This document shows positions 27,988-41,305 of a stretch of 64,000 nt of DNA, piece by piece (the stretch's first letter is position 1; every line of letters begins with the position of its first letter). The notes under the pieces are model-generated. The model did no database searches. It saw nothing but the letters and a program-made list of their open reading frames with translations, and was not told where the DNA came from. Source of the DNA: Streptomyces sp. TLI_105 (GTDB lineage: Bacteria; Actinomycetota; Actinomycetes; Streptomycetales; Streptomycetaceae); contig NZ_FNSM01000001.1 of the NCBI RefSeq assembly GCF_900105415.1, positions 5,605,501 through 5,669,500 on the forward strand, written 5' to 3'. The position numbers were made by a program, and so were the translations under genes.

Positions 27988-30042
27988 TCAGTAGGTCAGG
28001 ATGCCCGGGTCCGTCGTGCCCGCCGCGCCCGTCTCCACGTGGCCCGCCAGGCGGCGGAGGTAGTCCGTGGAGGCGGAGGACGTGACGGTGACGTCGTACC
28101 ACCGGGCGGAGGCGGAGAGCGGGACGGTGTGGCTGACGGTGGCGCCCTTGGGGACGGAGAGGGTCGTCGGGGTGCCGCCGTACGCGTTGGTGACGGTCAC
28201 CGTGGCCGTCGTGCCGGCGTTGGTGAAGGTCAGCGCGAGGTCGCCGGTCGTGGCGTCGTGCCGGGCGGTCACCTCCGGGACGGCCGTCTTGCCGGGGGAG
28301 CGGAAGCGGCGGAGGAAGCCGTTGGGGCCGTGGACCGTGAGGTCGGTGAGGCCCTTGCTGTACTTGGTGTTCCAGGTGTCCGCGATCGACTTGCTCGCCT
28401 CCGCCGTGTACGTCCACGGGGCGTCCGTGCGGTTCGCCGAGGTCACGTAGAACTGGGCGCCGGCCGCGGGGCCGCCGCTGAAGACGAGGCGGTAGGTGCC
28501 CGCCGTCACGTCCGCCGCGCCGTCCACGTACGGCGCGTACTTCAGCGGGCGGGTCGGCTTGGCGCCCGGCTCCTGGCGGGGCATCGCGCCGACGGCCGGG
28601 GCGGTGGCCAGGAAGTCGGGGTGGCGGTTCTTGTCCGGCGGGTAGTAGCCGTCCGTCGGGGGCAGCGCGGCCGGCTGGGTCTGCGTGCGGGTGAAGTCGA
28701 AGGCGCTGGTCAGGTCGCCGCAGACCGCTCGGCGCCAGGGGGAGATGTTGGGTTCGCGCACCCCGAAGCGGCTCTCCATGAAGCGGATGACCGAGGTGTG
28801 GTCGAAGGTCTCGGAGCAGGTGTAGCCGCCGGTGGACCACGGCGAGACGACGATCATCGGGACGCGCGGGCCCAGGCCGTAGGGGCCGGCCACGTAGCCC
28901 GTCTTGCCGCCGAAGTAGTCGAGGGTGGTCGGGACCGTCGACAGGCCCTGCGCCGCCGAGCCCGGGGCGTAGGGCGGGACGACGTGGTCGAAGAAGCCGT
29001 CGTTCTCGTCGTACGTGATGAACAGCGCCGTACGGGCCCACACGTCCGGGTTCGAGGTCAGCGCGTCCAGGACCTGCGCGATGTACCAGGCGCCGTAGTT
29101 GGCGGGCCAGTTGGCGTGCTCGGAGAAGGCCTCGGGGGCCGCGATCCAGGAGATCTGGGGGAGCCGGCCGGCCTGCACGTCGGCGCGCAGGACGTCGAAG
29201 TAGCCCTCGCCCGCCTTGGCGTTCGTGCCGGTGCGGGCCTTGTCGTAGAGCGGGTTGCCGGGCTGGGCGTTGCGGTAGTTGTTGAAGTACAGGAGGGAGT
29301 TGTCGCCGTAGTTGCCGCGGAAGGCGTCGTTGATCCAGCCCCAGGAGCCGGCCGCGTTCAGGCCGTCGCCGATGTCCTGGTAGACCTTCCAGGAGACCCC
29401 CGCCGCCTCCAGGCGCTCGGGGTAGGTGGTCCAGCCGTAGCCCGCCTCGGCGTTGTTCAGGACGGGGCCGCCGCCCGTGCCGTCGTTGCCGACGTACCCG
29501 GTCCACATGTAGTAGCGGTTCGGGTCGGTGGCGCCGATGAACGAGCAGTGGTACGCGTCGCAGATGGTGAACGCGTCGGCGAGCGCGTAGTGGAAGGGGA
29601 TGTCCTCACGGGTGAGGTGCGCCATCGTGGCCTTGGTCTTGGCCGGTATCCAGTTGTCGTACCTGCCCTTGTTGAAGGCGCTCTGGCCGCCCGCCCAGTC
29701 GTGGTTGAGGCCCTGGAGGTACTCCATGCCCAGCTTGTCGCTGGTCGGCCGGAAGGGGAGCGTGACCTTGCTGCCGTCCGACTGGTTCCAGACCGACTTC
29801 CCGCTGGGCAGCGTCACCGGGCGCGGGTCACCGAAGCCCCGTACGCCCTTCATCGCCCCGAAATAGTGGTCGAAGGAACGGTTCTCCTGCATCAGGACCA
29901 CGATGTGCTCGATGTCCTGGATCGTGCCGGTGGCGCCCTGCGCCGGGATCGCGGCGGCGCGGGCGATGCTCTCCGAGAGCATCGTGAACGCGGCGGCGCC
30001 GCCGGTCAGCTGCAGGAACCGGCGGCGATTGAGGTCGGCCAT
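27988..30042 (-). CDS. plcC: Secreted phosphocholine-specific phospholipase C
   Basis: A 684-residue enzyme with a twin-arginine signal (LNRRRFLQLTGGAAAFTML, about 4-22), so it is probably exported folded. The catalytic phosphoesterase domain opens with IEHIVVLMQENRSFDHYFG, whose Glu-Asn and Asp residues bind metal in this acid-phosphatase/PLC family. Other motifs are FHYALADAFTICDAYHCS, TNPNRYYMWTG-like sequence, and FITYDENDGFFDHVVPP. The C-terminal half has two copies of a DUF756-type beta domain, ending WYDVTVTSSAS and a short tail. It would hydrolyse phosphatidylcholine or sphingomyelin outside the cell to release phosphocholine. A decayed copy of its last 60 codons lies 4 kb to the left. 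Confidence 0.93.
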   Translation of the reverse strand: MADLNRRRFLQLTGGAAAFTMLSESIARAAAIPAQGATGTIQDIEHIVVLMQENRSFDHYFGAMKGVRGFGDPRPVTLPSGKSVWNQSDGSKVTLPFRPTSDKLGMEYLQGLNHDWAGGQSAFNKGRYDNWIPAKTKATMAHLTREDIPFHYALADAFTICDAYHCSFIGATDPNRYYMWTGYVGNDGTGGGPVLNNAEAGYGWTTYPERLEAAGVSWKVYQDIGDGLNAAGSWGWINDAFRGNYGDNSLLYFNNYRNAQPGNPLYDKARTGTNAKAGEGYFDVLRADVQAGRLPQISWIAAPEAFSEHANWPANYGAWYIAQVLDALTSNPDVWARTALFITYDENDGFFDHVVPPYAPGSAAQGLSTVPTTLDYFGGKTGYVAGPYGLGPRVPMIVVSPWSTGGYTCSETFDHTSVIRFMESRFGVREPNISPWRRAVCGDLTSAFDFTRTQTQPAALPPTDGYYPPDKNRHPDFLATAPAVGAMPRQEPGAKPTRPLKYAPYVDGAADVTAGTYRLVFSGGPAAGAQFYVTSANRTDAPWTYTAEASKSIADTWNTKYSKGLTDLTVHGPNGFLRRFRSPGKTAVPEVTARHDATTGDLALTFTNAGTTATVTVTNAYGGTPTTLSVPKGATVSHTVPLSASARWYDVTVTSSASTDYLRRLAGHVETGAAGTTDPGILTY

Positions 30043-30285: not shown

Positions 30286-30702
30286 CTACTCGACGACGAG
30301 CTCGACCTCGATGTTTCCGCGCGTGGCCTTCGAGTAGGGGCAGAAGGCGTGCGTCTTCTTCAGCAGGGTGAGGCCGGCCTCGCCCTGGAGGTGGTCGGGG
30401 AACTCGGCGCGCATCACGACCGCGAGGCCGAAGCCGCCGTCCGCCGGGTCCTTGCCGATGGAGACCTCGGCGGTGACGGAGACCTCGGAGATGTCGATCC
30501 GCTCCTGGCGGGCGATCACGCCCATGGCGCTGGCGAAGCAGGCCGCGTACCCGGCGGCGAAGAGCTGCTCCGGGTTGGTGCCCTGGCCGTTGCCGCCGAG
30601 GGCCTCCGGGTGGGCCAGGGGGAGGTCGAGCCGGCCGTCGGAGCTGACGGCGCGGCCCTCGCGGCCGTTGGCGGTGGCGACGGCGGTGTAGATCGCGTCC
30701 AT
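30286..30702 (-). CDS. ohr: Organic hydroperoxide reductase (Ohr)
   Basis: A 138-residue Ohr/OsmC protein with the family's two redox cysteines, Cys55 (GYAACFASA) and Cys121 (FCPYSKATRGN). It reduces lipid and organic peroxides, using lipoyl proteins as electron source in studied species. It is transcribed divergently from a MarR regulator carrying the OhrR sensor cysteine, and the shared gap contains a perfect palindrome. This is the classic ohr-ohrR arrangement. A second ohr gene lies at 54464 next to a different type of MarR regulator. Confidence 0.95.
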   Translation of the reverse strand: MDAIYTAVATANGREGRAVSSDGRLDLPLAHPEALGGNGQGTNPEQLFAAGYAACFASAMGVIARQERIDISEVSVTAEVSIGKDPADGGFGLAVVMRAEFPDHLQGEAGLTLLKKTHAFCPYSKATRGNIEVELVVE

Positions 30703-30786: not shown

Positions 30787-30817
30787 TGTGATGCGCGTCT
30801 CCCGTATCCTGGGCTCC

Positions 30818-31282
30818 ATGGACGAGGACTTCCTCCGGCTCGACAACCAGATCTGCTTCTCCCTGCACGCCGCCACCCGCGCCTTCAACGGCGTCTACCG
30901 GGGCGCGCTCAAGGAGCTGGGCCTGACCTACCCCCAGTACCTCGTCATGCTCGTGCTCTGGGAGCACGGCGAGCTGCCCGTGAAGGGGATCGGCGAACGG
31001 CTGCGGCTCGACTCCGGAACCCTGTCCCCGCTGCTCAAGCGGCTGGAGGCGGCCGGATACGTCGAGCGCCGCCGCAGCCCCGAGGACGAGCGGTCCGTCA
31101 CCGTCCGCCTGACCGGTGACGGGACCGCCCTGCGCGAGAAGGCCCTCGGCGTGCCGCGCCGGATCGCCGCCGCCACCGGGCTTGACCTGGCGGAACTCGG
31201 AGAGCTGCGGGAGCGCCTCCACGCCCTGGCCGTCCGGCTCGACGGGGTCGACCCGGACGACGTGGCCGCCGCCTGCGGCTGA
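30818..31282 (+). CDS. ohrR: MarR-family peroxide sensor OhrR
   Basis: The 154-residue repressor carries the OhrR signature near its start: LRLDNQICFSLHAATRAF with the peroxide-sensing Cys13 and the neighbouring tyrosine in LTYPQYLVMLVLWEH. The winged helix-turn-helix includes RLRLDSGTLSPLLKRLEAAGYVERRRSPEDERS. Oxidation of the cysteine should release it from the palindrome between the two genes and derepress ohr. I used the inner ATG because upstream codons (to 30788) would overlap the palindrome and lack family similarity. Confidence 0.93.
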   Translation: MDEDFLRLDNQICFSLHAATRAFNGVYRGALKELGLTYPQYLVMLVLWEHGELPVKGIGERLRLDSGTLSPLLKRLEAAGYVERRRSPEDERSVTVRLTGDGTALREKALGVPRRIAAATGLDLAELGELRERLHALAVRLDGVDPDDVAAACG

Positions 31283-31309: not shown

Positions 31310-32563
31310 CTACGGAGCGGTGATCACCAGCGCCGCGTTGTGCCCGCCGAAGCCCACCGACGTGGAGACCGCGAGGCGGAGCCTGGCTCCCCGGGCCGTC
31401 GTCGGGACGTCCAGGTCGACGCCCTCGCCCGGCTCCGCGAAGTTCGCGGTCGGCGGCACGGTCTCCTCCGCGAGCGACAGCACCGTGAGCGCCGCCTCCA
31501 CCGCCCCCGCCGCGCCCAGCAGGTGCCCGGTCACCCCCTTCGTCGACGTCACCGGCGGCCGGTGCGGAAGGAGCGCCGCGAGCACCGCCGCCTCCACGGC
31601 GTCACCGCGCGGCGTACCCGTCCCGTGCGCGTTGACCAGGTCGACGTCGCCCGGCACCGCGCCCGCCTCCGCGAGCGCGCCCCGGACGGCCGCCGTCAGG
31701 CCGGAGCCGTCCGGCCGGGGCGCCACCACGTGGTGCGCGTCCGACGTCGCCCCGTAGCCCGTGATCAGCGCCCGGGGCCGGACCCCGCGCGCGGCGGCGT
31801 CCGCCGGGCGTTCCAGGACCAGGAACCCCGCGCCCTCCGCCATCACGAAGCCGTCCCGGTCCCTGTCGAACGGCCGCAGCCCGCCCGCCGGGTCGTGGAA
31901 CCGGCGGGACAGCGCGCCGAGCCGGTCGAAACCCGCCACGTAGAACGGGCTCAGCGACGCCTCGGCCCCGCCCGCCAGGACGAGGTCGCAGCGGCCCAGG
32001 GCCAGCAGGTCGAGCGCGACGCCGATCGCCGTGGCGCCCGCCGCGCACGCCGTGGTCACCGCGGTCGACGGGCCGCGGATCCCGAACTCGACGGCCAGCT
32101 GCCCCGCGACGGAGTTCGGCAGCGCGCCCGGCACCGCGAACGGGGACATGTCCCCGGGGCCGTCCGTCCGCAGCACCTCGCGCTGCGCCTCGAACGTGAG
32201 GACGCCGCCCGCCCCGATCCCGGCGACCACGCCGACCCGCGCCCCGTCCCAGCCGGCGGGGTCCAGACCGGCGTCGGCGAGCGCCTCCCGCGCCGCGACC
32301 AGCGCGAGCAGCGCGCTCCGGTCGGGCCGCCGGGCCGTCACCGCCCTGCCGAGGTCCCCGGGGAGCGCGGGCGCCCGGCAGGCGAGGTAGCGCAGGCCGT
32401 CCCGCTCTTCGAGGGCGGCGGTGGCCTTCCCGGCGCGGACGGTCTCCCAGGTCGTCGCGGCGTCCGCGCCGGCCGGGGTGAAGAGACCGATGCCGGTGAC
32501 GGCGGCCCCGGCGCCTCGGCCGCCGCCCGTGCTCGCCGCGCCCCCCGGCGCCGGGCCCGGCAT
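31310..32563 (-). CDS. Beta-ketoacyl-ACP synthase (KAS II-like)
   Basis: A 417-residue condensing enzyme with a complete catalytic set: Cys173 in TACAAG, His313 in NAHGTGTPRGD and His347 in STKGVTGHLLGAAG. It should join a malonyl-ACP to an acyl starter. The Ser/Gly/Ala-rich N-terminus before AVTGIGLFTP is unusually loose. It is the last gene of an operon with an ACP whose stop overlaps its start (TGATG). No chain-length factor, ketoreductase or acyltransferase-domain gene is nearby, so it either borrows primary fatty-acid enzymes or does a single elongation. It differs from a housekeeping FabF by context. Confidence 0.88.
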   Translation of the reverse strand: MPGPAPGGAASTGGGRGAGAAVTGIGLFTPAGADAATTWETVRAGKATAALEERDGLRYLACRAPALPGDLGRAVTARRPDRSALLALVAAREALADAGLDPAGWDGARVGVVAGIGAGGVLTFEAQREVLRTDGPGDMSPFAVPGALPNSVAGQLAVEFGIRGPSTAVTTACAAGATAIGVALDLLALGRCDLVLAGGAEASLSPFYVAGFDRLGALSRRFHDPAGGLRPFDRDRDGFVMAEGAGFLVLERPADAAARGVRPRALITGYGATSDAHHVVAPRPDGSGLTAAVRGALAEAGAVPGDVDLVNAHGTGTPRGDAVEAAVLAALLPHRPPVTSTKGVTGHLLGAAGAVEAALTVLSLAEETVPPTANFAEPGEGVDLDVPTTARGARLRLAVSTSVGFGGHNAALVITAP

Positions 32564-32793
32564 CAGGCCACCCCCGCGTACCGGCAGACGAGGTCCTCGA
32601 TCGCCGCGACCGTGGGCGACGCGTACAGCTCCTCCTCCGGGACCGGGACGCCCCGCTCCTTGCGGAGCACGAGGGCGAGCTCGGTGAGGAGGAGCGAGTC
32701 GAGCCCGGCCTCCTCGCGGGTGGACTCCGGGGTGATGTCCGCCGGGTCGAGACCGAGCGAGACGAGCAGGGTCTTCAGTTCGTCGAAGGTCAT
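32563..32793 (-). CDS. Acyl carrier protein
   Basis: A 76-residue ACP with the phosphopantetheine attachment serine at position 33 in AGLDSLLLTELALVL and the acidic helix II expected for partner docking. GLDSLL rather than the DSLD of primary-metabolism AcpP suggests a dedicated carrier for secondary metabolism. It shares one base with the ketosynthase start and follows the cyclase gene after 27 bp, so the three are probably cotranslated. A phosphopantetheinyl transferase must come from elsewhere in the genome. Confidence 0.9.
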   Translation of the reverse strand: MTFDELKTLLVSLGLDPADITPESTREEAGLDSLLLTELALVLRKERGVPVPEEELYASPTVAAIEDLVCRYAGVA

Positions 32794-32820
32794 GGCGTTC
32801 CTTGGGGGGCAGAGGTCGGT

Positions 32821-34419
32821 TCAGTGCGCGACGCACGCGCGCGCGTGGTTCAGGCCGAGCAGCACGCACACGTCCGTCAGGAGCGGCACGTGGTACGCGA
32901 GCGGCCGGGGCCCCGCCTGGTCCGGGCGGGAGACGAAGCCGCCGTCCGGCCGCTGCCGCTCCAGGAGGTGGCGCACCGCCCGCCCGGTCGCACCCCGGGC
33001 GGACGGCACGGTCGGTGTCCGGGCCACCGCGATCAGCGAGTACGCCGTGCTGATCGGGTCGCTCGGATCGGACGGCACGTGCCCCCAGCCGCCGTCCGCG
33101 TTCTGCGTGTCGAGCAACCGGGACACGGCCCGCGCCCGGGCCCGCGCCACCTCCGCCCGGGCCGGATGCCCGGGCGCCACGGCCAGGAAGGAGTCGTGGG
33201 CGAGGACGGTACGGAACAGGGCGTTGCTCTCGTTCAGGCTCCAGCTGCGCTCGAAGGAGCCGGCGGCCTCCTGCCGGGCCGCGACGAACCGGACGGCGGC
33301 CTCCACCGCCGGCCGGTGCGCGGGCTCGGGAGCCAGCGCGTTCACGGCCGCCGCCGTTATCGCCACCTCGGAGGCGGTGCCGTGCTCGAAGGTCGGGAAG
33401 CCGCCGTCCGCACCCTGCCGGGCCAGCAGGTACCGCTCGCCGGCCGCCACCTCCGGGCCGAACAGCACCGCGCCCGTCGCCCGCAGGAACTCCACGCAGT
33501 ACGAGGTGTCGTCCACGTCGCTCTGCCCGACGCCCCGGTCGAACCCCCAGCCGCCGTCGGGGTTCCGGTGCTCCACCAGGGCCGACGCGAGGGCCCGCAG
33601 GGTGTGCGCCGGAGCTCCCGCCCCGGCCAGCGCGAGCCCGCCGGTCGCCGTCGCGAACACGTCCATCCCCGTGATGAACGGCAGCCCGCCGTCCTCACGG
33701 AGCCAACCGCGCAGCTCCCGCGCCCGCGCCCGTGCCGCCTCCGCGTACCGGGGGCGCAGCCGCAGCGCGAGCAGCGCGAGGATCCGGGCGAGGTGGTTGC
33801 CGTACGGGGGCGGGCCGGGCAGCGCACAGGGTTCGAGCGCCCGCCAGTCCTCCTCCGTGACGAGCCGCGGAGCACCCGTCCCGAAGGCGTACAGGACCTT
33901 GAGGGCGGCCATCTCCGTGATCAGCCACCGCTGTTGGCCGCGCGCCTCGAAGAGCGTCTCGGGGGAGGGGAGTTCGGAGAAGGGGTGGGCGCCCAACTCG
34001 GCCAGGAGCGTCTGGAACATCAGCCGCTTGCGTCCGGCCGTGAAGTGGTCGAAGCCGCCGAGCAGCCGGGCGAGCGCGCCCCGCCCGTCCACGTACTCGC
34101 CGAGGGCCGCGCGGGCGGCGGCCTCCTGCACGGGGTCGGGGGCGCCCTCGTCCACGGCCGTCTTCAGCCGGCGCATCAGCCGCTCCTGGGCGTCCGGGTC
34201 CACGCCCGTCACCGTGAGCAGTCGCAGGGCCAGGGCGGATTCCAGGATCCGGCTGTCGCACGGCGCCCGGAGCAGTCCCCCGGGCCCGGCGGCCGCCACC
34301 AGACGGGTGGCGAGCCGTGCCCGGGCGCGGTCGAGCGGCTCGGTCCCCGGGTGGGGCTCCGGCCGGGGTCCGGGGACGGCGAGGGAGGCGCCGGGTAAGG
34401 GCAGCGCGCAGTACGTCAT
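32821..34419 (-). CDS. Class II terpene cyclase-like protein (prenyltransferase/squalene-cyclase repeats)
   Basis: A 532-residue alpha-barrel protein with at least four QW-like repeats (NPDGGWGF, GADGGFP, NADGGWGH, RPDGGFV). Asp301-Val-Asp-Asp304, followed by Thr-Ser, matches the DxDD acid motif of class II cyclases. It lies at the position (about 300 of 500-530) seen in bacterial diterpene and drimane-type cyclases. No class I DDxxD or NSE metal motif is present, so a protonation-initiated cyclisation that leaves any diphosphate in place is expected. No prenyl diphosphate synthase gene is adjacent. The next gene upstream is a NUDIX hydrolase that could remove the diphosphate. Cyclase activity is inferred; a non-catalytic repeat protein cannot be excluded. 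Confidence 0.75.
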   Translation of the reverse strand: MTYCALPLPGASLAVPGPRPEPHPGTEPLDRARARLATRLVAAAGPGGLLRAPCDSRILESALALRLLTVTGVDPDAQERLMRRLKTAVDEGAPDPVQEAAARAALGEYVDGRGALARLLGGFDHFTAGRKRLMFQTLLAELGAHPFSELPSPETLFEARGQQRWLITEMAALKVLYAFGTGAPRLVTEEDWRALEPCALPGPPPYGNHLARILALLALRLRPRYAEAARARARELRGWLREDGGLPFITGMDVFATATGGLALAGAGAPAHTLRALASALVEHRNPDGGWGFDRGVGQSDVDDTSYCVEFLRATGAVLFGPEVAAGERYLLARQGADGGFPTFEHGTASEVAITAAAVNALAPEPAHRPAVEAAVRFVAARQEAAGSFERSWSLNESNALFRTVLAHDSFLAVAPGHPARAEVARARARAVSRLLDTQNADGGWGHVPSDPSDPISTAYSLIAVARTPTVPSARGATGRAVRHLLERQRPDGGFVSRPDQAGPRPLAYHVPLLTDVCVLLGLNHARACVAH

Positions 34420-34624
34420 GGGGAGGTGTCCTTCGGTGCTGTCGTACGAAAGGCGGGGTGCCGGCCAGGGGAGGTCGACCAGGGGGCTTCGGGCGGCGGG
34501 AAGGCGCTGCGCGCGCTCCGCGCCGTGCGGCCGTCGCGCCGTGCGGCGTCCGTGCCGTACGGGCTCCGCGACCACGGTGGTCGGCGGGGCGAGAGGCGCC
34601 GTGCGGTCTTCGCGCCCCGGGCGG

Positions 34625-35260
34625 TCAGCCGGGGAAGAGGCGCCGCACCGCCTCCGCGCCGGCCGGGACCAGCGGGGTGTAGCCGCCGGTCAGGACCGCG
34701 AGCGGTGCGACGAAGCCGCACCAGGCGATCTCGCTCGGATCCGGCCGGGGCGCGCGGTCCACCACCCAGCGGTGGACCGTCAGGAAGCAGGCGCCGTGCG
34801 GATCGTCGACGCGGATCCGGTACGCCTCCGTCAGGCCGGGCGCCTGCTCCCAGCCCAGCTCCTCCCGGAGCTCCCGGAGCGCGGCCGCCCGGTACTCCTC
34901 GCCGCTGCGGACCGCCCCGCCGATCAGGACGTCGTAGTGGTCCGGGTAGGCCGGTGCCGAGGCGGTCCGCCGGTAGAGGAGGACCCGGCCGGCGTGGTCG
35001 GTGCAGACGGTCGCCGCGTACCGGCGGAGCAGTCCGGTGGGCGGCCCGGCGGCCCGTCCGCCCTGGGCGACCACCCGGTCCCGGGGGTCGACGTAGTCGA
35101 CGCGCTCGGAGACGTACCCCTCGGAAGCGTGCCTCTCGGAGCCGTGCCTCTCGGCGGCGCACCCCTCGGCGGCGTACCTCCCGGCGGCGCGCGTCTCGGG
35201 GCCGCGCCCGTCGGGCGGGAACGCCCCGGACGGGCGCCGGTCCGGTGCGGGCGCGTTCAC
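34625..35260 (-). CDS. NUDIX hydrolase with repetitive N-terminus
   Basis: Starts at GTG overlapping the P450 stop (GTGA). Residues about 75-211 form a NUDIX domain with an intact box: G-G-A-V-R-S-G-E-E then RELREELGW, supplying the metal-binding glutamates. The closest general type is the IPP-isomerase/ADP-sugar branch. In this operon a prenyl diphosphate is an attractive substrate, since some NUDIX enzymes dephosphorylate prenyl diphosphates. The first 70 residues contain six or seven pentapeptide units (ERHGS, ERHAS, EGYVS and similar) that do not belong to the fold. 205 bp separate it from the cyclase gene. Confidence 0.85.
   Translation of the reverse strand: MNAPAPDRRPSGAFPPDGRGPETRAAGRYAAEGCAAERHGSERHASEGYVSERVDYVDPRDRVVAQGGRAAGPPTGLLRRYAATVCTDHAGRVLLYRRTASAPAYPDHYDVLIGGAVRSGEEYRAAALRELREELGWEQAPGLTEAYRIRVDDPHGACFLTVHRWVVDRAPRPDPSEIAWCGFVAPLAVLTGGYTPLVPAGAEAVRRLFPG
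35105..35215. repeat. 15-bp tandem repeats in the NUDIX gene
   Basis: About seven imperfect 15-bp units (centred on CTCTCGG plus a variable GCCGTG-like half) encode a pentapeptide array at the protein's N-terminus. The unit length is a multiple of three, so copy changes would keep the frame. Confidence 0.75.
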
Positions 35261-36564
35261 GGTCGCTCGCGGACGCGCGCGTGCAGCGGACCGGCCGGGC
35301 GCAGGTTGATGCCGAACACGGGCTCGCCCACCGGTCCGGTCGTCTCGACCGTGAACCGGGAGAGGAGCGCGCCGAGCAGCACCTCCATCTCCCGCATGGC
35401 GAACCGCGTCCCGAGACAGGCGCGCGGGCCGATGCCGAAGGGAAGGTACGCGCCGGGCGGCAGCGGCGACCGGGCCGGGAAGCGGCCGGGGTCGAAGGCC
35501 TCGGGCTCCGGCCAGACCTCCGGGTCGCGGTGGGTCAGGTAGGGGCAGACGAGGAGGTCCGTACCGGCCGGGATCGCCCAGCCGTCCAGCGTCTCGTCCG
35601 CCGGGCTGTGCCGGGGCAGCAGCCAGCCCGTCGGGTAGAGCCGCAGCGTCTCGGAGAGCACCGCCTCCACGGCCGAAGCGTCCCCCGCCGCCCGCTCCAT
35701 GATCTCCGGGTGTGCGTCGAGCAGGACGAACGCCCAGGTCAGGGTGCGGGCACTGCTCTCGTACCCGGCGACGAGCAGGGTGACGAGCTCGTCGCGGATC
35801 AGCCGGTCCGTGTACGCCGGATCCGTCTCGGCCGCGTCGAGCAGCCGGTCCAGGACGCTGGGACCTGCCGTGCGGAGCCCACCGGGCTCGCGGGCCCCGG
35901 CACCGTCCCTCCGGTGGCGGACGCGGGCGTCGGCGAGCGCCCGGAGGATCCGCTCGTCGAGCGCGGCGATCGCCGACTCGACCTCCGGCGGCAGCGCGGT
36001 CGCGCCGCCCACGTCGGCGGGGAGCGCGGCGACGATGTCCTGCACGGCCGCCAGGTCGACGTACGTCTCCTGGTCGAGGGGCCGGTCCGTGAGCGAGCGC
36101 CAGATCGTGTCGACCGTGAAGAACTGCACGTCCTCGGCGATGTCGGTCGGCACGCCCCGGCGCGCCCGCTCCGTCCAGCGGTCGACGACGCACGCCGCCG
36201 CCCCCGCGATGTGCTGCTCCCAGCGCTGGATGCCCCGGCCCGTGAACATCGCCTGGAGCAGCTTCCGCTGGGACCGCCAGGCCTCGCCCGTGGCGGTCAG
36301 CATGCCGTCCCCGAGGAGGGGTCTCGCCCGGTGCGACCGCTTCACGTACCGGTCGCCGCCGACGCCGAGCACCTGGTGCACGTGCCGGGGGTCCGTGACC
36401 AGGACCGCCGCCCGGCCGCCACGGCGGAATCCGGTCAGCCGGCCCGGCGTGTGCGCCTGGCGGAGGAGGTCCACGAGGGGTGCTCCGGAGGCAGTCCAGG
36501 CCGTCACGGCGTCGTCGTCGAGGAAGTCGGGGAGCATGCCATCCGTCACGCATTGCGATTGCAT
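35257..36564 (-). CDS. Cytochrome P450 (cluster P450 1)
   Basis: A 435-residue soluble P450 with the heme-ligand loop FGIGPRACLGTRF (Cys near 383), the K-helix ETLRLYPTGW, and an I-helix reading AGYESSARTLTW, where the usual acid-Thr pair is Glu-Ser. It is the first gene of the minus-strand operon and would hydroxylate or epoxidise the operon's product. Redox partners are not encoded nearby. The ATG used leaves 21 bp to the divergent acyltransferase start. The in-frame ATG at 36537 (MLPDFLDDD) is equally possible and would leave room for promoters. Confidence 0.9.
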   Translation of the reverse strand: MQSQCVTDGMLPDFLDDDAVTAWTASGAPLVDLLRQAHTPGRLTGFRRGGRAAVLVTDPRHVHQVLGVGGDRYVKRSHRARPLLGDGMLTATGEAWRSQRKLLQAMFTGRGIQRWEQHIAGAAACVVDRWTERARRGVPTDIAEDVQFFTVDTIWRSLTDRPLDQETYVDLAAVQDIVAALPADVGGATALPPEVESAIAALDERILRALADARVRHRRDGAGAREPGGLRTAGPSVLDRLLDAAETDPAYTDRLIRDELVTLLVAGYESSARTLTWAFVLLDAHPEIMERAAGDASAVEAVLSETLRLYPTGWLLPRHSPADETLDGWAIPAGTDLLVCPYLTHRDPEVWPEPEAFDPGRFPARSPLPPGAYLPFGIGPRACLGTRFAMREMEVLLGALLSRFTVETTGPVGEPVFGINLRPAGPLHARVRERP

Positions 36565-36585
36565 GATGACGTATCGTAGCGGCCC

Positions 36586-37962
36586 GTGCGATCTTCAGAT
36601 CCGGTTCGATCTTCCGCAGGGGTGCCGCTCGGGGTGCTCGACCGGCTCTCCCTCGACGTGGCGGCACTGCATGCGACGGACTCCGCCCTGCACCTCGGCG
36701 GCTTGATCGTCTTCGAGGGGGAACCGCCTTCCCGCGCAAGGGTGTTGGATCATCTGAGGCGTCGCGTCGGCCTGCTCCCCGAGCTCGCCCACCGGCTCGC
36801 GGGCGACGCGGGGCGCCCCCGCTGGGAGCCCGACCCCGGCTTCGATCCCGATCTTCACCTGTACGAGCTACCCGGAGGCGCCGACCCGTTGACGGTCGTC
36901 GCCGAGCTGCTGCGGCAACCCCTGCCGCGTGACCGGCCGTTGTGGGGGCTCTGGCTCGTCCGCCGGGCCGGCGGCGGGCGATGGGGGCTCTGCTACCGCG
37001 CCCACCACGCCTTCCAGGACGGTGCCGCCGCCGTCGCCACCCTGGAGCGGCTGCTCGGCCCCGAGGAGGCGCCGCGCCCCAGGACCCTCACCTTCCGGCC
37101 GCCCCGGCCCGTGCCCTGGGCCGCCGTCCTCCCCGAGTTCCGGCCGCCGCGCCGCGTCACCTGGTGGCCGGCCCTCGACACCCCGCCCGCCCAGTCCTAC
37201 GCCGCCGCGTTCGCCGACGTCGACACCGCCCGGCTGCACGCGCTCGGCCGTCTGACCGGGGCCACCGTCCCGCAGCTCTGCCTGGCCCTGACCACCGGGG
37301 CGCTGCGCGCCTGGCACCCCGAGGGCTGGGGGCCGGACGGCCCCGGTCACGGCCGGGGGCTGCGCGCCAACCTCGGGATCAGCGTCCGGGACCCCGACGA
37401 CCCCCGTCCCCTGCTCGGCAACCGGGTCGCCGTCGCCGGGGTCGACCTCCCCTGCGGCGAACCCGACCCGGCCCGGCGGCTCGCCCGCCTCGGAGGCGCC
37501 CTCGACCACACCCGGCTCGCCCGGCTGGCCGACGCCCACCGGGTCGTCCTGCGCGGACTTCCGTACCGGATCGGCCGCCTGGCGCTCGCCCGCAGCATCG
37601 ACGCCCGGTACACCCCGCTCAGCGTCGCCGACCTCCGGATCCGGCAGCCCCTCGACTTCGCCGGAACCCCCGCGGCCGGGGTGTACGCCCTGCCGGTCAT
37701 GGTGCCGGGCCAGCCGCTCTTCGTCGCCTGGGTCGTGCACCGCCGCCGCCTCCATGTCACCTTCCTCACCGACCGCGCCCTCGCCGACGCCGAACGGCTG
37801 CCGGAGGCATGGGAGTCGGCCCTCGTCACGTACGAACGGCTGGCCGGGGAAGGGGCGTTCGCCGGGGCGTGCGGGTTGTTCGGGCAGGCGGGTGAGGGCC
37901 CGCTCGCGCGGGCGAGTGACGGCGCGTTCGCGCGGGCCGAGGGCGGGGTGGGGGCGCCGTGA
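36586..37962 (+). CDS. Wax ester synthase/diacylglycerol acyltransferase-like protein
   Basis: About 458 residues with the WS/DGAT N-terminal domain: LSLDVAALHATDSALHLGG, PLWGLWLV and the catalytic HHxxxDG motif (His140-His141 to Asp145-Gly146, HHAFQDG). The C-terminal half has ANLGISVRDP, but the usual NVPGP motif is not preserved. These enzymes transfer an acyl group from CoA to an alcohol. In this cluster a hydroxylated terpenoid would be a plausible acceptor, with an acyl chain from the ketosynthase/ACP pair; ordinary lipid storage is the alternative. The GTG at 36622 (VPLGVLDRL) fits family starts better than 36586. It overlaps the next gene as GTGA. Confidence 0.82.
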   Translation: MRSSDPVRSSAGVPLGVLDRLSLDVAALHATDSALHLGGLIVFEGEPPSRARVLDHLRRRVGLLPELAHRLAGDAGRPRWEPDPGFDPDLHLYELPGGADPLTVVAELLRQPLPRDRPLWGLWLVRRAGGGRWGLCYRAHHAFQDGAAAVATLERLLGPEEAPRPRTLTFRPPRPVPWAAVLPEFRPPRRVTWWPALDTPPAQSYAAAFADVDTARLHALGRLTGATVPQLCLALTTGALRAWHPEGWGPDGPGHGRGLRANLGISVRDPDDPRPLLGNRVAVAGVDLPCGEPDPARRLARLGGALDHTRLARLADAHRVVLRGLPYRIGRLALARSIDARYTPLSVADLRIRQPLDFAGTPAAGVYALPVMVPGQPLFVAWVVHRRRLHVTFLTDRALADAERLPEAWESALVTYERLAGEGAFAGACGLFGQAGEGPLARASDGAFARAEGGVGAP

Positions 37963-39515
37963 GCGGCTCGGATCCGGTGTCCCCGCGGCCGCCCGACCGC
38001 GGGCAGGAGCCGTCACCCGACCACGGACAGGAGTCGCCACCCGGTCGCGGGCAGGAGGCCTCGCCCGACCATGGACAGGAGCCGCCGCCCAGCCACGGGC
38101 AGGAAGCGCCGCCCGACCACGGACAGGAGCCGTCGCCCGACCACAGGCAGGAGCCCCGGCCCCGGGGCGGGGAGGCGCCCCCGCCCCCGTACGGCCAAGC
38201 GCCCCCGCCCCGGCACGGGCGGGCTCCCGGGGCGTGGCCGCTGCTCGGGCATCTGCCGTATCTGGCCACCCGGCCGCTGGCCTTCCTGGACTCGCTGCCC
38301 GGCCACGGCGACGTGGTCCGGGTGCGGATGGGGACCCGGACCGCCCACGTGGTCAGCCACCCCGCCCTCGTCCGCCGCGTCCTCACCGACCGCGGCTCCT
38401 TCGACCGGAGCGGCGTCCTGTACGAGAAGGTCCGCGCGCTCCTCGGCAACGGCCTGGCCACCTGCCCGAACGCCGAGCACCGGGACCAGCGGCGCGCCCT
38501 CCAACCGGCTTTCCGTCCCTCCCTGATGGACCGCTACGCCGCCGTGATGACGGCCGAGACCCAGGCCCTGACCGGGCGCTGGCGGCCCGGCGCGGTCGTC
38601 GACGTCACCGAGGAGGCGTTCCGGCTCACGACCGCCGTCGCCGTCCGCACCCTCTTCTCCGCCGGCATCACCCCGCGCGCCGCGGAGGAGCTGCGCGAGG
38701 CCCTCGAAGTCCTGCTGCGCGGGGTCTACATGCGGGTCGTGGCGCCGGCCGTCGACCGGGTGCCCTCCCCGTCCCGCCGCCGCTACCACCGGGCCCTGGC
38801 CCGCTGGCGTACGGGCGTCGCCGCCATCGTCGCCTCGTACCGGGCGACCGGGGTGGACCACGGGGACGCCCTCTCGCTGCTGCTCGCCGTGCGGGACGAG
38901 CGCGGCCGGTCCCTGTCGGACGCCGAACTCGGCGACCAGGTCGCCACCCTGGTCCTGGCCGGCGCCGAGACCACCTCCTCGGTCGTCGCCTGGGCCCTGC
39001 GCCTCCTGGTCGACCACCCCGAGGCCGCCGCCCGGCTGCGCGAGGAGCTCGACGCGGTCCTCCCGGGCCGCCCGGTCGCCCCGGCCGACCTGCCCCGGCT
39101 GTCGTACACCGCTGACGTGGTGCGCGAGGTGCTCCGCCTCTACCCGCCGGCCTGGGCGGTCACCCGCACCGCCACCCGCGAGACCGAGCTGGCGGGGAGG
39201 CCGCTGCCGCCCGGCTCCACGGTGATCTGCTGCCTCTACCTGCTCCACCGGCGCCAGGAGCTCTTCCCGGACGCGGCGCGCTTCGACCCGGGGCGCTGGG
39301 CGGCGGAGGAGGTGCCGCGGGACGCCTGGCTTCCGTTCGGGCTCGGTGCCACCAAGTGCGTCGGGGACGTGTTCGGCACGGTCGAGGCCACCCTCGCGCT
39401 CGCCGCGATCGCCTCGCGCTGGCACCTGACCCCGGTCTCGCCGCGCCCGCCCCGCCCGGTCCCGCGCATCGTCCTCTCGCCGGGGCCGCAGCCGATGCGG
39501 CTTGCCGAACGGTGA
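37959..39515 (+). CDS. Cytochrome P450 with N-terminal tandem octapeptide repeats (cluster P450 2)
   Basis: A 518-residue protein whose P450 domain begins only at about residue 90 (GAWPLLGHLPYL). The I-helix AGAETTSSVVAW, K-helix EVLRLYPPAW and heme loop FGLGATKCVGD (Cys467) are intact, so it should be active. The family start, unlike that of most bacterial P450s, includes the proline-rich GHLPYLA region found in terpene-oxidising enzymes such as pentalenene oxygenase. Residues 12-67 are seven copies of an eight-residue unit, PDHGQEPS and variants, without hydrophobic character. It is translationally coupled to the acyltransferase. Confidence 0.9.
   Translation: MSGSDPVSPRPPDRGQEPSPDHGQESPPGRGQEASPDHGQEPPPSHGQEAPPDHGQEPSPDHRQEPRPRGGEAPPPPYGQAPPPRHGRAPGAWPLLGHLPYLATRPLAFLDSLPGHGDVVRVRMGTRTAHVVSHPALVRRVLTDRGSFDRSGVLYEKVRALLGNGLATCPNAEHRDQRRALQPAFRPSLMDRYAAVMTAETQALTGRWRPGAVVDVTEEAFRLTTAVAVRTLFSAGITPRAAEELREALEVLLRGVYMRVVAPAVDRVPSPSRRRYHRALARWRTGVAAIVASYRATGVDHGDALSLLLAVRDERGRSLSDAELGDQVATLVLAGAETTSSVVAWALRLLVDHPEAAARLREELDAVLPGRPVAPADLPRLSYTADVVREVLRLYPPAWAVTRTATRETELAGRPLPPGSTVICCLYLLHRRQELFPDAARFDPGRWAAEEVPRDAWLPFGLGATKCVGDVFGTVEATLALAAIASRWHLTPVSPRPPRPVPRIVLSPGPQPMRLAER
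37992..38159. repeat. 24-bp tandem repeats in the second P450 gene
   Basis: Seven consecutive units of 24 bp, each close to CCCGACCACGGACAGGAGC plus a variable end, encode the octapeptide array. Copies diverge mostly at third positions and in a few residues. Confidence 0.9.
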
Positions 39516-39590: not shown

Positions 39591-40043
39591 ATGTCCGACA
39601 TCACTGTCCGGCGCGCCACCGCCGACGACTCCAAGCGGCTCACCCGGCTCGTCCGGACCTCAGGGGCCTACCGGGGCGACTACGCCGTCATGGTCGAGGG
39701 GTACCAGGTCGGCGGCCCGTACATCGAGCACCACCCCGTCTTCGTCGCCGTCGACGACGGTGACGGCGGCCGGGTGCTCGGCTTCTACGCGCTCCTCGTC
39801 GACGAGGCCGAACTCGACCTCGCGTTCGTCGCCGACGCGGCCCAGGGGCTCGGCATAGGCCGGCTCCTCATGGAGCACATGACCGGGCAGGCCAGGGCCG
39901 CCGGACTCGACTCCGTGCGGGTCGTCGCGCATCCGCCGGCCGAGGAGTTCTACCTGCGGACGGGCGCCGTCCGCACCGGCACCGTGCCGCCCACCGGCCG
40001 CATCCACTGGGAGCGCCCCGAGCTGCGGTACGACGTCGCGTGA
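39591..40043 (+). CDS. GNAT family N-acetyltransferase, possibly leaderless
   Basis: A 150-residue single-domain acetyltransferase opening SDITVRRATADDSKRL. The acetyl-CoA loop reads AQGLGIGRLLMEHM, matching the Q/RxxGxG/A pattern, and a C-terminal EEFYLRTGAVRTG strand-turn closes the fold. The acceptor is unknown. A TATACT sequence just before the ATG, with no ribosome binding site, suggests a leaderless message. Its stop overlaps the GTG of the MFS transporter gene, so the two are coupled. Confidence 0.88.
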   Translation: MSDITVRRATADDSKRLTRLVRTSGAYRGDYAVMVEGYQVGGPYIEHHPVFVAVDDGDGGRVLGFYALLVDEAELDLAFVADAAQGLGIGRLLMEHMTGQARAAGLDSVRVVAHPPAEEFYLRTGAVRTGTVPPTGRIHWERPELRYDVA

Positions 40044-41305
40044 CCGCCGCCCAGGACACCCGGGAGCGGGAGCGGGACCGCCGCAAGGTCTTCGCCGACC
40101 TCACCCCGCTGCGCACCTCCGCGCACTACCGCCGCCTCTGGTTCGGGAACACCGTCTCCTGGGTCGGACAGGGCATGACGGCCCTCGCCGTCTCCCTCCA
40201 GGTGTACGACATCACCCGCTCGCCCTTCTCCGTCGGGCTCGTCGGCCTCTTCGCCCTCGTCCCGCTGGTCGTCTTCGGCCTGTACGGCGGCGCCATCGCC
40301 GACACCGTCGACCGACGCAAGCTCGGCCTCGCCAGCGCGAGCGGCTCCGCCGTGCTGTCCGTCGCCCTGGCCGCCGCCGCGTTCGCCGGCTTCCACCACG
40401 TCTGGTTCCTGTACGGGATCGTCGCCCTCCAGGCCGTGTGCGCCGCGCTCAACGCGCCCGCCCGCTCCTCGATGATCCCCCGGCTCCTGCCGCCCGAGCA
40501 GCTGCGCGCCGCCAACGCGCTCAACTCGATGGTCACCACCTTCGGCACCCTCGTCGGGCCCAGCCTCGGCGGCCTGATCGTCGGGTTCGCCGGCTACCAG
40601 ACCGCGTACCTCGTGGACGCCGTCGCCTTCACCGCGAGCCTGTACGCGATGTGGCGGCTGCCGTCCATGCTGCCCGAACGCACGGGCAGCAAGAGGGCCT
40701 CGGTCCTCGACGGGCTCCGCTTCCTCGCCACCCGCCCCAACCTGCGCATGACGTTCTTCTCGGACTTCTGCGCGATGATCCTCGCCCATCCCCGCGCCCT
40801 GTTCCCGGCCGTCGCCGTCCTCTGGTACGGCGGTGACGCGAAGACCACCGGACTCCTCGTGGCCGCGCCCGCGTTCGGGGCGCTCCTCGGCGGGGTGCTG
40901 TCCGGCTGGCAGGGCCGCATCCGCCACCACGGGCAGGCGATCCTGCTCGCCGTCGCCTCCTGGGGCACGGCCGTCGCCGTCTTCGGGCTGACCCGGAACC
41001 TCTGGCTCGGGCTCCTCCTGCTCGCCCTCGCCGGCTACTCCGACACCGTCTCGATGATCTTCCGGAACACGATGATGCAGGTCGCCGCCCCGGACGAGAT
41101 GCGCGGCCGGCTCCAGGGCGTCTTCATCGTGGTCGTCGCGGGCGGGCCCCGCCTCGGCGACTTCCTCGCGGGCTCCGTCGCGGACCTCACCTCGCCGGCG
41201 GTCGCCATCACCGGCGGCGGGATCGCCTGCGTCGTCGCGATCGGACTCCTCGCCCTGTACGGACGCGGATTCCGCCGCTACGACGCCCACGACCCGACTC
41301 CCTGA
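40040..41305 (+). CDS. MFS exporter (EntS/MFS_3-like)
   Basis: A 421-residue transporter with about 12 membrane segments. The cytoplasmic loop GGAIADTVDRRKLG after helix 2 is the MFS signature A. ALNAPARSSMIPRLLPPEQLRAANALNSM is typical of the MFS_3 group that includes enterobactin exporter EntS. Export of a small hydrophobic compound or siderophore is likely. It is coupled by GTGA overlap to the acetyltransferase gene; the pair may modify and export the same molecule, or exporter use by the nearby biosynthetic cluster is possible. No direct evidence distinguishes these. Confidence 0.88.
   Translation: MTAAQDTRERERDRRKVFADLTPLRTSAHYRRLWFGNTVSWVGQGMTALAVSLQVYDITRSPFSVGLVGLFALVPLVVFGLYGGAIADTVDRRKLGLASASGSAVLSVALAAAAFAGFHHVWFLYGIVALQAVCAALNAPARSSMIPRLLPPEQLRAANALNSMVTTFGTLVGPSLGGLIVGFAGYQTAYLVDAVAFTASLYAMWRLPSMLPERTGSKRASVLDGLRFLATRPNLRMTFFSDFCAMILAHPRALFPAVAVLWYGGDAKTTGLLVAAPAFGALLGGVLSGWQGRIRHHGQAILLAVASWGTAVAVFGLTRNLWLGLLLLALAGYSDTVSMIFRNTMMQVAAPDEMRGRLQGVFIVVVAGGPRLGDFLAGSVADLTSPAVAITGGGIACVVAIGLLALYGRGFRRYDAHDPTP

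Follow-up and report, generated by a model that had tools for sequence, protein, structure and literature searches.

A seven-gene cluster of Streptomyces sp. TLI_105 that probably makes an acylated drimane-type sesquiterpenoid

Organisation of the cluster

The window analysed here is a 64,000-nucleotide stretch of Streptomyces sp. TLI_105 (contig NZ_FNSM01000001.1, positions 5,605,501 to 5,669,500), which lies within an 8.88-Mb genome. Between positions 31310 and 39515 of the window there are seven genes, encoding a beta-ketoacyl-acyl-carrier-protein synthase (KAS), an acyl carrier protein (ACP), a class II sesquiterpene cyclase of the drimenyl-diphosphate-synthase (DMS) clade, a NUDIX hydrolase, two cytochromes P450 and a predicted O-acyltransferase of the wax synthase/diacylglycerol acyltransferase (WS/DGAT) type, hereafter WS, which together probably make an acylated, oxidised drimane-type sesquiterpenoid.

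31310..32563, minus strand: KAS, FabF-like beta-ketoacyl-ACP synthase, 417 aa (PF00109/PF02801)
32563..32793, minus strand: ACP, 76 aa, with Ser33 (PF00550, 49.8 bits)
32821..34419, minus strand: class II sesquiterpene cyclase of the DMS clade, 532 aa, DxDD at 301-304 (match to PDB 7xq4, tree)
34625..35260, minus strand: NUDIX hydrolase (PF00293, NUDIX box 115-134)
35257..36564, minus strand: cytochrome P450a (PF00067, heme-Cys motif at 376)
36586..37962, plus strand: WS, predicted WS/DGAT-type O-acyltransferase (PF03007, HHAFQDG at 140-146)
37959..39515, plus strand: cytochrome P450b (PF00067, heme-Cys motif at 460)

Genes were called from codon-position bias and inspection of start codons. 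All seven proteins exceed the curated Pfam cut-off of their own family, the cyclase through two SQHop models (the Prenyltrans model scores below its cut-off), and gene calls, Pfam and motif reading agree on the seven intact genes and catalytic motifs described in the initial annotation. Read in the DNA, a TGATG overlap joins ACP and KAS, while GTGA overlaps join P450a to NUDIX and WS to P450b. These overlaps are as first described, but the spacings are not short throughout, the gap between cyclase and NUDIX measuring 205 bp with ATG 34419 as the cyclase start, or 49 bp with GTG 34575.

Comparison with six related loci gives dN/dS values of 0.16-0.55 for the seven genes; the P450b values for loci L004 (1.36) and L007 (0.98) were excluded, as both loci match only a paralogue. 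Because of these values, and because the set recurs rearranged in distant relatives, the cluster is more than a chance assembly, and on sequence evidence it is real, conserved and functional-looking.

The cyclase belongs to the drimenyl-diphosphate-synthase clade

By sequence, the nearest solved structures to the cyclase are 7xq4 (E 1.3e-142), 8zg1, 7xr7 and relatives (E about 1e-142), with SsDMS chains aligning over residues 28-526. SsDMS is a drimenyl diphosphate synthase, cited as such in PMC11035983 and PMC12365925. The DxDD motif of the window's cyclase reads QSDVDDT at 299-305, and the protein is 54% identical to P0054 of Streptomyces showdoensis, an SsDMS-type protein with two altered residues. 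The idea of a novel cyclase family was rejected, SsDMS, at 54% identity, being both solved and characterised.

In a tree of 61 rows, the cyclase falls inside a 36-row clade with SsDMS and CavC (SH-aLRT 99), the latter an enzyme that yields drimenol in E. coli (PMC11035983). Bracketing by the two is imperfect, the window's cyclase lying in the sister half of this clade (20 rows) and not between SsDMS and CavC. Apart from the clade stand 25 more distant homologues (33-39% identity by local alignment), around which stretches of 14-20 kb hold no match to the window's NUDIX.

The two halves of the clade differ at several positions, each near-fixed within its half (16 or more of the 17 close-clade rows against 12 or more of the 14 others). 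One is H510, in place of Asp506 of SsDMS and the corresponding Asp of CavC; in the outgroup, His is the commonest residue at this site (9 of 22 rows, Asp in 4). A second is P205-Y206, against Trp-Glu in SsDMS and Trp-Gln in CavC, the outgroup having Trp in 22 of 22 rows and Glu in 21 of 22, and a third is L395, against Arg in SsDMS and CavC. Thus the window's cyclase carries His510 at the place of SsDMS Asp506, an Asp that is not known to be defining. In P0054, Ile replaces Tyr505, beside Asp506, suggesting that the authors of the structure probed this spot. A product switch has been described at D502 of PtmT2 and G485 of Tpn2 (PMC9814783); equivalence of H510 to these residues is not established, as the profile search aligned Tpn2 (7xkx) only over profile positions 360-459, short of the site.

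The seven genes recur as a set

For the neighbourhood comparison, a first search gave 36 loci, of which 21 were used and 15, with partial matches at 23-41%, set aside. Added to these were 40 regions, covering 40 of the 48 listed matches in 392 genomes of the window's genus, 11 regions found by searching 394 genomes across the family, and the cav locus of S. clavuligerus. After removal of duplicates, the 25 distant homologues and six awkward loci, 31 distinct loci remained, including the window. The six comprise L013, at a contig edge; L015, L023 and L140, frameshifted or shattered; L071, partial; and L141, very divergent. L023 holds fragments of KAS, ACP and WS; the sequence examined around L013 (whose left side is missing), L015, L071, L140 and L141 contains no match to these three genes.

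KAS and ACP accompany the cyclase in 22 of the 31 distinct DMS-clade loci, or 22 of 37 with the six dropped loci restored. The co-occurrence anticipated in the initial annotation is thereby borne out, and the cyclase is not usually found without the ACP/KAS/P450 set. KAS, ACP and WS are all present in 21 of the 31 loci and all absent in nine, the remaining locus (L012) having KAS and ACP without an intact WS. The WS matches of L016 and L017 were counted as present though they cross a stop, at residues 451 and 433 respectively; these stops lie behind HHxxxDG and are most likely the natural gene end. Among the matches listed for the 392 genus genomes, KAS and ACP stand beside the cyclase in 10, nine of them with WS.

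In particular, L070, whose cyclase is SsDMS but for its first residue and the two positions changed in P0054, has all seven genes in an order unlike the window's (P450a, WS, KAS, ACP, NUDIX, cyclase, P450b). All seven also occur, in other orders, in L017 (P450b match 34%), L019, L021, L132 and L135, and six of the seven by the thresholds used in L022, L133 and L136; the rearranged loci include other genera of the family, and the flanking genes checked, three in L017 and two in L132, look unrelated. As all seven recur together in other orders, there is strong evidence, at the level of gene content, that they form one functional set, and the possibility of accidental neighbours was rejected on this recurrence across loci.

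As a control, we examined 16 regions around KAS relatives outside cyclase loci in the same 392 genomes, chosen among the listed non-cyclase matches of the KAS search. A WS match was found in one of the 16 (L174) and a cyclase or NUDIX match in none.

One locus, recorded under the title Microtetraspora glauca (L014), has the same cyclase (L099) as genome G076, which is listed under the window's genus, and its name may be wrong.

A conserved divergent promoter element and loss of the acyl genes

Between the divergent P450a and WS genes lies a short element delimited by conservation.

36561..36598, no strand assigned: putative 38-bp divergent promoter element, GCATGATGACGTATCGTAGnGnnCnGTGCGATCTTCAG

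Its -10-like boxes overlap, TATCGT at 36572-36577 on the plus strand and TACGAT at 36578-36573 on the minus strand, each 8 nt ahead of a start codon, a layout suggestive of two leaderless transcripts. The 34 specified bases of the element are identical in 12 aligned sequences, even where the neighbouring proteins are only 67-74% identical. It occurs exactly in the window and in 13 of the 35 loci scanned, 11 of these 13 being loci that had defined it, while 17 of the 35 hold no copy within 11 mismatches. The 15-bp core GATGACGTATCGTAG occurs once in the window's own genome, with one further site at two mismatches, and the element is therefore not a regulon-wide site.

Decayed copies were found in L008 (three mismatches), L009 and L097 (five each), L015 (seven) and L098 (10), all of which lack KAS, ACP and WS. 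Because decayed copies persist, the acyl set was lost from these reduced relatives and not gained by the others. In L008 and L009 the copy even keeps the opening bases of the lost WS gene, and these two loci therefore descend from full clusters.

The KAS, ACP and WS proteins

The KAS carries the motifs TACAAG (171), NAHGTGT (311) and KGVTGH (342); in related loci, the TACA and K...GH motifs are present in 21 of 21, and the third reads NAHGTGT in 16 of 21 and NAHATGT in five. It scores 387.9 bits against TIGR03150 (fabF; cut-off 493.75), short of assignment as a FabF (KAS II) equivalog, and shares 49% identity with its closest paralogue in the genome. The genes called at 27-46 kb include a single FabF-like KAS and no ketosynthase/chain-length-factor pair of the kind that marks a type II polyketide synthase (PKS). 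The missing chain-length factor remarked on in the initial annotation fits, because the ketosynthase is FabF-like and not of the type II PKS kind. Alignment in full places Ala at the positions of both FabF Ile108 and Phe133, which we take to line the chain-length pocket; a short-chain gate was accordingly rejected, and the chain length is not predictable from the pocket residues.

In the KAS tree, all 22 drimane-cluster KAS used form, with one outsider (L153), a 23-row clade with SH-aLRT 100, and strict monophyly of the drimane-cluster KAS is not rejected (p-AU 0.44). The outsider is the KAS of the L174 cluster (L174:5481-16748), which also comprises an ACP, two WS/DGAT genes, a P450 (43% to P450b), a short-chain dehydrogenase/reductase (SDR), an aminotransferase and a KASIII; with no match there to the window's cyclase, L174 places the acyl unit in another context. 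At least 195 of the 392 genus genomes match the KAS at E 1e-100 or better, and since KAS relatives are this common, the KAS gene alone is no marker of the cluster.

The ACP has a DSL motif with Ser33 and is present wherever the KAS is, in 22 of 22 loci. WS belongs to the WS/DGAT family by its PF03007 score (69.5 bits, cut-off 23.6) and HHAFQDG motif, and HHxxxDG is present in 20 of 20 WS loci above threshold. With 142.3 bits against TIGR02946 (cut-off 309.95), it falls short of the wax ester/triacylglycerol synthase subfamily and is a divergent member of the family. An AlphaFold model of WS (mean pLDDT 71, from 12 sequences) matches first the wax synthases 7nxg and 6chj and then condensation domains of nonribosomal peptide synthetases (NRPS), including 6cgo, whose title refers to chain release from the enacyloxin polyketide synthase.

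At two more distant terpenoid loci, L086:6052-11844 and L080:8346-13960, a WS/DGAT domain and an ACP are fused in one protein of 541 aa beside a class I synthase, a cyclase homologue and a KASIII. The strongest hint so far that enzymes of this kind may use ACP-bound acyl groups comes, by analogy, from this WS-ACP fusion within a terpenoid operon. The L080/L086 operons appear as a second, different design for an acyl-terpenoid.

The NUDIX and P450 partners

The NUDIX box, GAVRSGEEYRAAALRELREE, begins at 115, and its RE..EE part is found in 28 of 29 related loci. Of the 31 distinct loci, 28 have a NUDIX match next to the cyclase, and in Actinomadura terrae the two form one 702-aa protein (P0058, locus L020). 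The hydrolase would be expected to dephosphorylate the cyclised diphosphate.

P450a and the P450 adjoining NUDIX in the cav locus of S. clavuligerus are reciprocal best matches (46% over 425 aa), and gene order identifies the latter, in all likelihood, as CavA, which hydroxylates C-2 and C-3 (PMC11035983). The heme-Cys motif of P450a is present in 22 of 22 loci above threshold. On this assignment of CavA, the window unites DMS, NUDIX and a CavA-like P450, as a cav-type locus does. P450b resembles pentalenene oxygenase (391.9 bits, below the NCBIfam cut-off of 800) and has matches in the cav locus at 43-44% and 36-37%.

A proposed route to an acylated drimane

The proposal of the initial annotation, in which one ketosynthase and an ACP of its own build the acyl chain borne by a cyclised, oxidised terpenoid, remains the best reading of the locus. 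In the first of five steps, the class II cyclase would protonate farnesyl diphosphate (FPP) through its DxDD motif and close two rings to give a drimane diphosphate, from which, in the second, the NUDIX hydrolase would strip the diphosphate to leave a drimenol-type alcohol. Close homology to characterised enzymes argues for both steps. FPP is a housekeeping metabolite, and since NUDIX would supply the alcohol, the lack of a class I synthase or prenyl diphosphate synthase is normal here. In the third step, the CavA-like P450a would hydroxylate the decalin, probably in its A ring, with P450b as a variable second oxidase. In the fourth, the FabF-like KAS would extend an acyl chain on the dedicated ACP, with malonyl loading, reduction and 4'-phosphopantetheinylation borrowed from primary metabolism; in the fifth, WS would transfer the acyl group from ACP onto a drimane hydroxyl. 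We infer steps three to five from gene content, co-loss, motifs and fusions.

Several observations weigh against this route. The near-fixed subclade differences at H510, P205-Y206 and L395 make a different drimane isomer possible, so the product may not be drimenyl diphosphate. The cluster holds no KR, DH, ER, MAT or phosphopantetheinyl transferase gene. P450b matches reach 200 bits in only 16 of the 31 loci and fall below in 15 (L022 at 199), and three clade members, L134, L137 and L139, hold the cyclase without a match to any of its six partners. The cyclase tree requires at least six changes for KAS, and its well-supported branches hold only four independent KAS differences; WS goes with KAS in 3.7 of four independent pairs on average, giving a sign-test p of 0.125 for co-loss. 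L012 keeps KAS, ACP and both P450s with a decayed WS, which would mean either that loss has only begun there or that the pathway has changed. Finally, the cyclase homologues in L080 and L086 read DTDC and not DxDD, which makes those loci an imperfect parallel.

The acyl donor itself could be different. Wax synthases normally use acyl-CoA, and the same terpenoid might be acylated from the cellular acyl-CoA pool while the task of KAS and ACP is confined to producing or trimming a short acyl unit, or lies in another step such as priming, a reading that agrees with the lack of reductive enzymes among the seven genes. We regard it as unlikely: WS is gone in nine of nine loci without KAS and ACP, WS-ACP fusions occur in other terpenoid loci, and the fold family includes carrier-protein-dependent condensation domains.

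Much the same genes might instead join the KAS/ACP chain to the terpene through carbon, or hydroxylate it as a separate lipid, with WS acting on the lipid or an intermediate. Related KAS/ACP pairs do stand in clusters without a cyclase match (L174, L175), but the seven genes include no prenyltransferase or aromatic-acceptor gene and NUDIX would give an alcohol ready for esterification, and we consider this reading quite improbable. That the cluster is decaying and silent has precedents among relatives, in WS and ACP of L012 and in the shattered L023, but is very improbable given dN/dS of 0.16-0.55, intact motifs and an exactly conserved promoter element. Least credible are two adjoining clusters, one a drimenol locus, the other an acyl locus unrelated to it, as the reduced loci L008, L009 and L098 (NUDIX and cyclase without the other five) might suggest, for the seven genes stay together in other orders and genera (L017, L019, L021, L070, L132, L135) and share a single divergent promoter.

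For the acylated-drimane route as a whole, we tentatively put forward a fuller history, somewhat less likely to be right than wrong. The actinobacterial pathway would have arisen separately from that of fungi, with a dedicated FabF-like KAS and ACP building the chain and WS taking it directly from ACP; the acyl unit would be old, and the cyclase of the window's clade would have shifted (H510, P205-Y206) to another isomer, so that the cluster would natively make a new acylated drimane and not a drimenol ester. The acyl unit is taken to be old because it is present in the SsDMS locus, the free hydroxydrimenols of S. clavuligerus coming from a lineage without it.

Comparison with known systems

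The initial annotation implied an orphan cluster with an orphan cyclase-like gene. This does not hold for the cyclase/NUDIX/P450 part, which matches SsDMS and the cav cluster. The SsDMS locus (S. showdoensis enzyme; L070) has the homologous cyclase and NUDIX among its seven genes, but differs in gene order, in cyclase sequence (54% identity) and in having Asp506 where the window has His510. The cav cluster (S. clavuligerus; L069) shares DMS, NUDIX, a CavA-like P450 and P450b-like P450s, whereas the 24.9 kb examined contain no KAS, ACP or WS match. According to PMC11035983 (2024), earlier bacterial DMS work had reported neither a natural drimane nor associated clusters, and the drimanes of that paper, found as free alcohols, are by its authors' account the first natural ones from bacteria. 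The terpene half of the window's cluster is thus already known, from SsDMS and cav, and the acyl-attaching half appears to be unreported.

The marine bacterial drimenol synthases of PMC9128629 also make drimenol, but they are HAD-type cyclases by that paper's abstract. Fungal drt (Aspergillus calidoustus) and ast (A. oryzae) share the logic of a drimane cyclase, a phosphatase, P450s and an esterified acyl group (PMC11035983, PMC11026467, PMC5024094). In drt, the highly reducing polyketide synthase (HR-PKS) DrtA makes the chain (PMC11026467), beside a HAD-cyclase, two P450s and an acyltransferase (PMC11035983); in ast, the NRPS-like AstA esterifies aryl acids (PMC5024094). With HAD-type cyclases and DrtA or AstA in place of the window's enzymes, this is an analogy of logic drawn from the papers, with no homology claimed.

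Among bacterial loci, L080 and L086 likewise combine a cyclase homologue with a WS/DGAT domain, an ACP and a ketosynthase, but with a class I synthase, a KASIII in place of the FabF-like KAS, a cyclase homologue of only 37-38% identity and no NUDIX match. Other Streptomyces KAS/ACP pairs, such as that of L175, place a FabF-like KAS (57%) beside an ACP, outside the drimane KAS clade.

The titles and abstract beginnings listed from the open-licence literature contained no bacterial acyl-drimane pathway, an earlier mention elsewhere being possible, and no paper in that literature paired 'drimenol' with 'acyl carrier protein'.

If the proposed route is correct, a small but widespread Streptomycetaceae set, among them the locus that yielded the crystallised bacterial drimane cyclase, holds a complete path to acylated drimanes, and the natural product has been overlooked. 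The drimane esters of fungi would then have a bacterial, ACP-based counterpart, and the action of a WS/DGAT-type enzyme on carrier-protein-bound acyl groups could be put to the test, with the natural loss variants L008, L009, L097 and L098 as ready comparisons.

Flanking genes and other observations

The cluster is bordered on both sides by genes that we place outside it.

30286-30702, minus strand: Ohr, left flank, paired with the OhrR-like regulator
30788..31282, plus strand: OhrR-like MarR regulator, conserved flank outside the cluster (NCBIfam OhrR 152.9 bits, cut-off 200)
39591..41305, plus strand: 150-aa gene and MFS transporter (MFS_3/MFS_1), flank, probably outside the cluster

Ohr/OhrR is retained in 16 of 19 close-clade loci and the right flank in 13 of 19, reduced loci included in both counts; because the flanks persist in relatives that lost most cluster genes, they mark the cluster borders. 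The 150-aa gene has no NCBIfam match and is presumably a GNAT. Beyond the flanks, the left side has a phospholipase C that matches the phosphocholine-specific family at 27988-30042 (TIGR03396, 838.9 bits), and the right side has genes for a subtilisin-like protease and an acyl-CoA synthetase.

The decayed WS of L012 (L012:7060-8075) lacks HHxxxDG, and the ACP of that locus is divergent (43%) with no DS motif. In L134, the neighbours of the cyclase are a LysR-type regulator on one side and a Cys/Met-metabolism gene on the other. The L175 cluster (L175:7114-12056) also has KASIII, flavin reductase, aminotransferase and seryl-tRNA synthetase-like genes, a combination that we take to be reminiscent of azoxy compound clusters, and near-identical KAS of the L175 type occur in several genomes of the genus. 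In the window's own genome, radical SAM, ACP, KAS and SDR domains lie together at L142:7982-12048, forming another small carrier-protein cluster.

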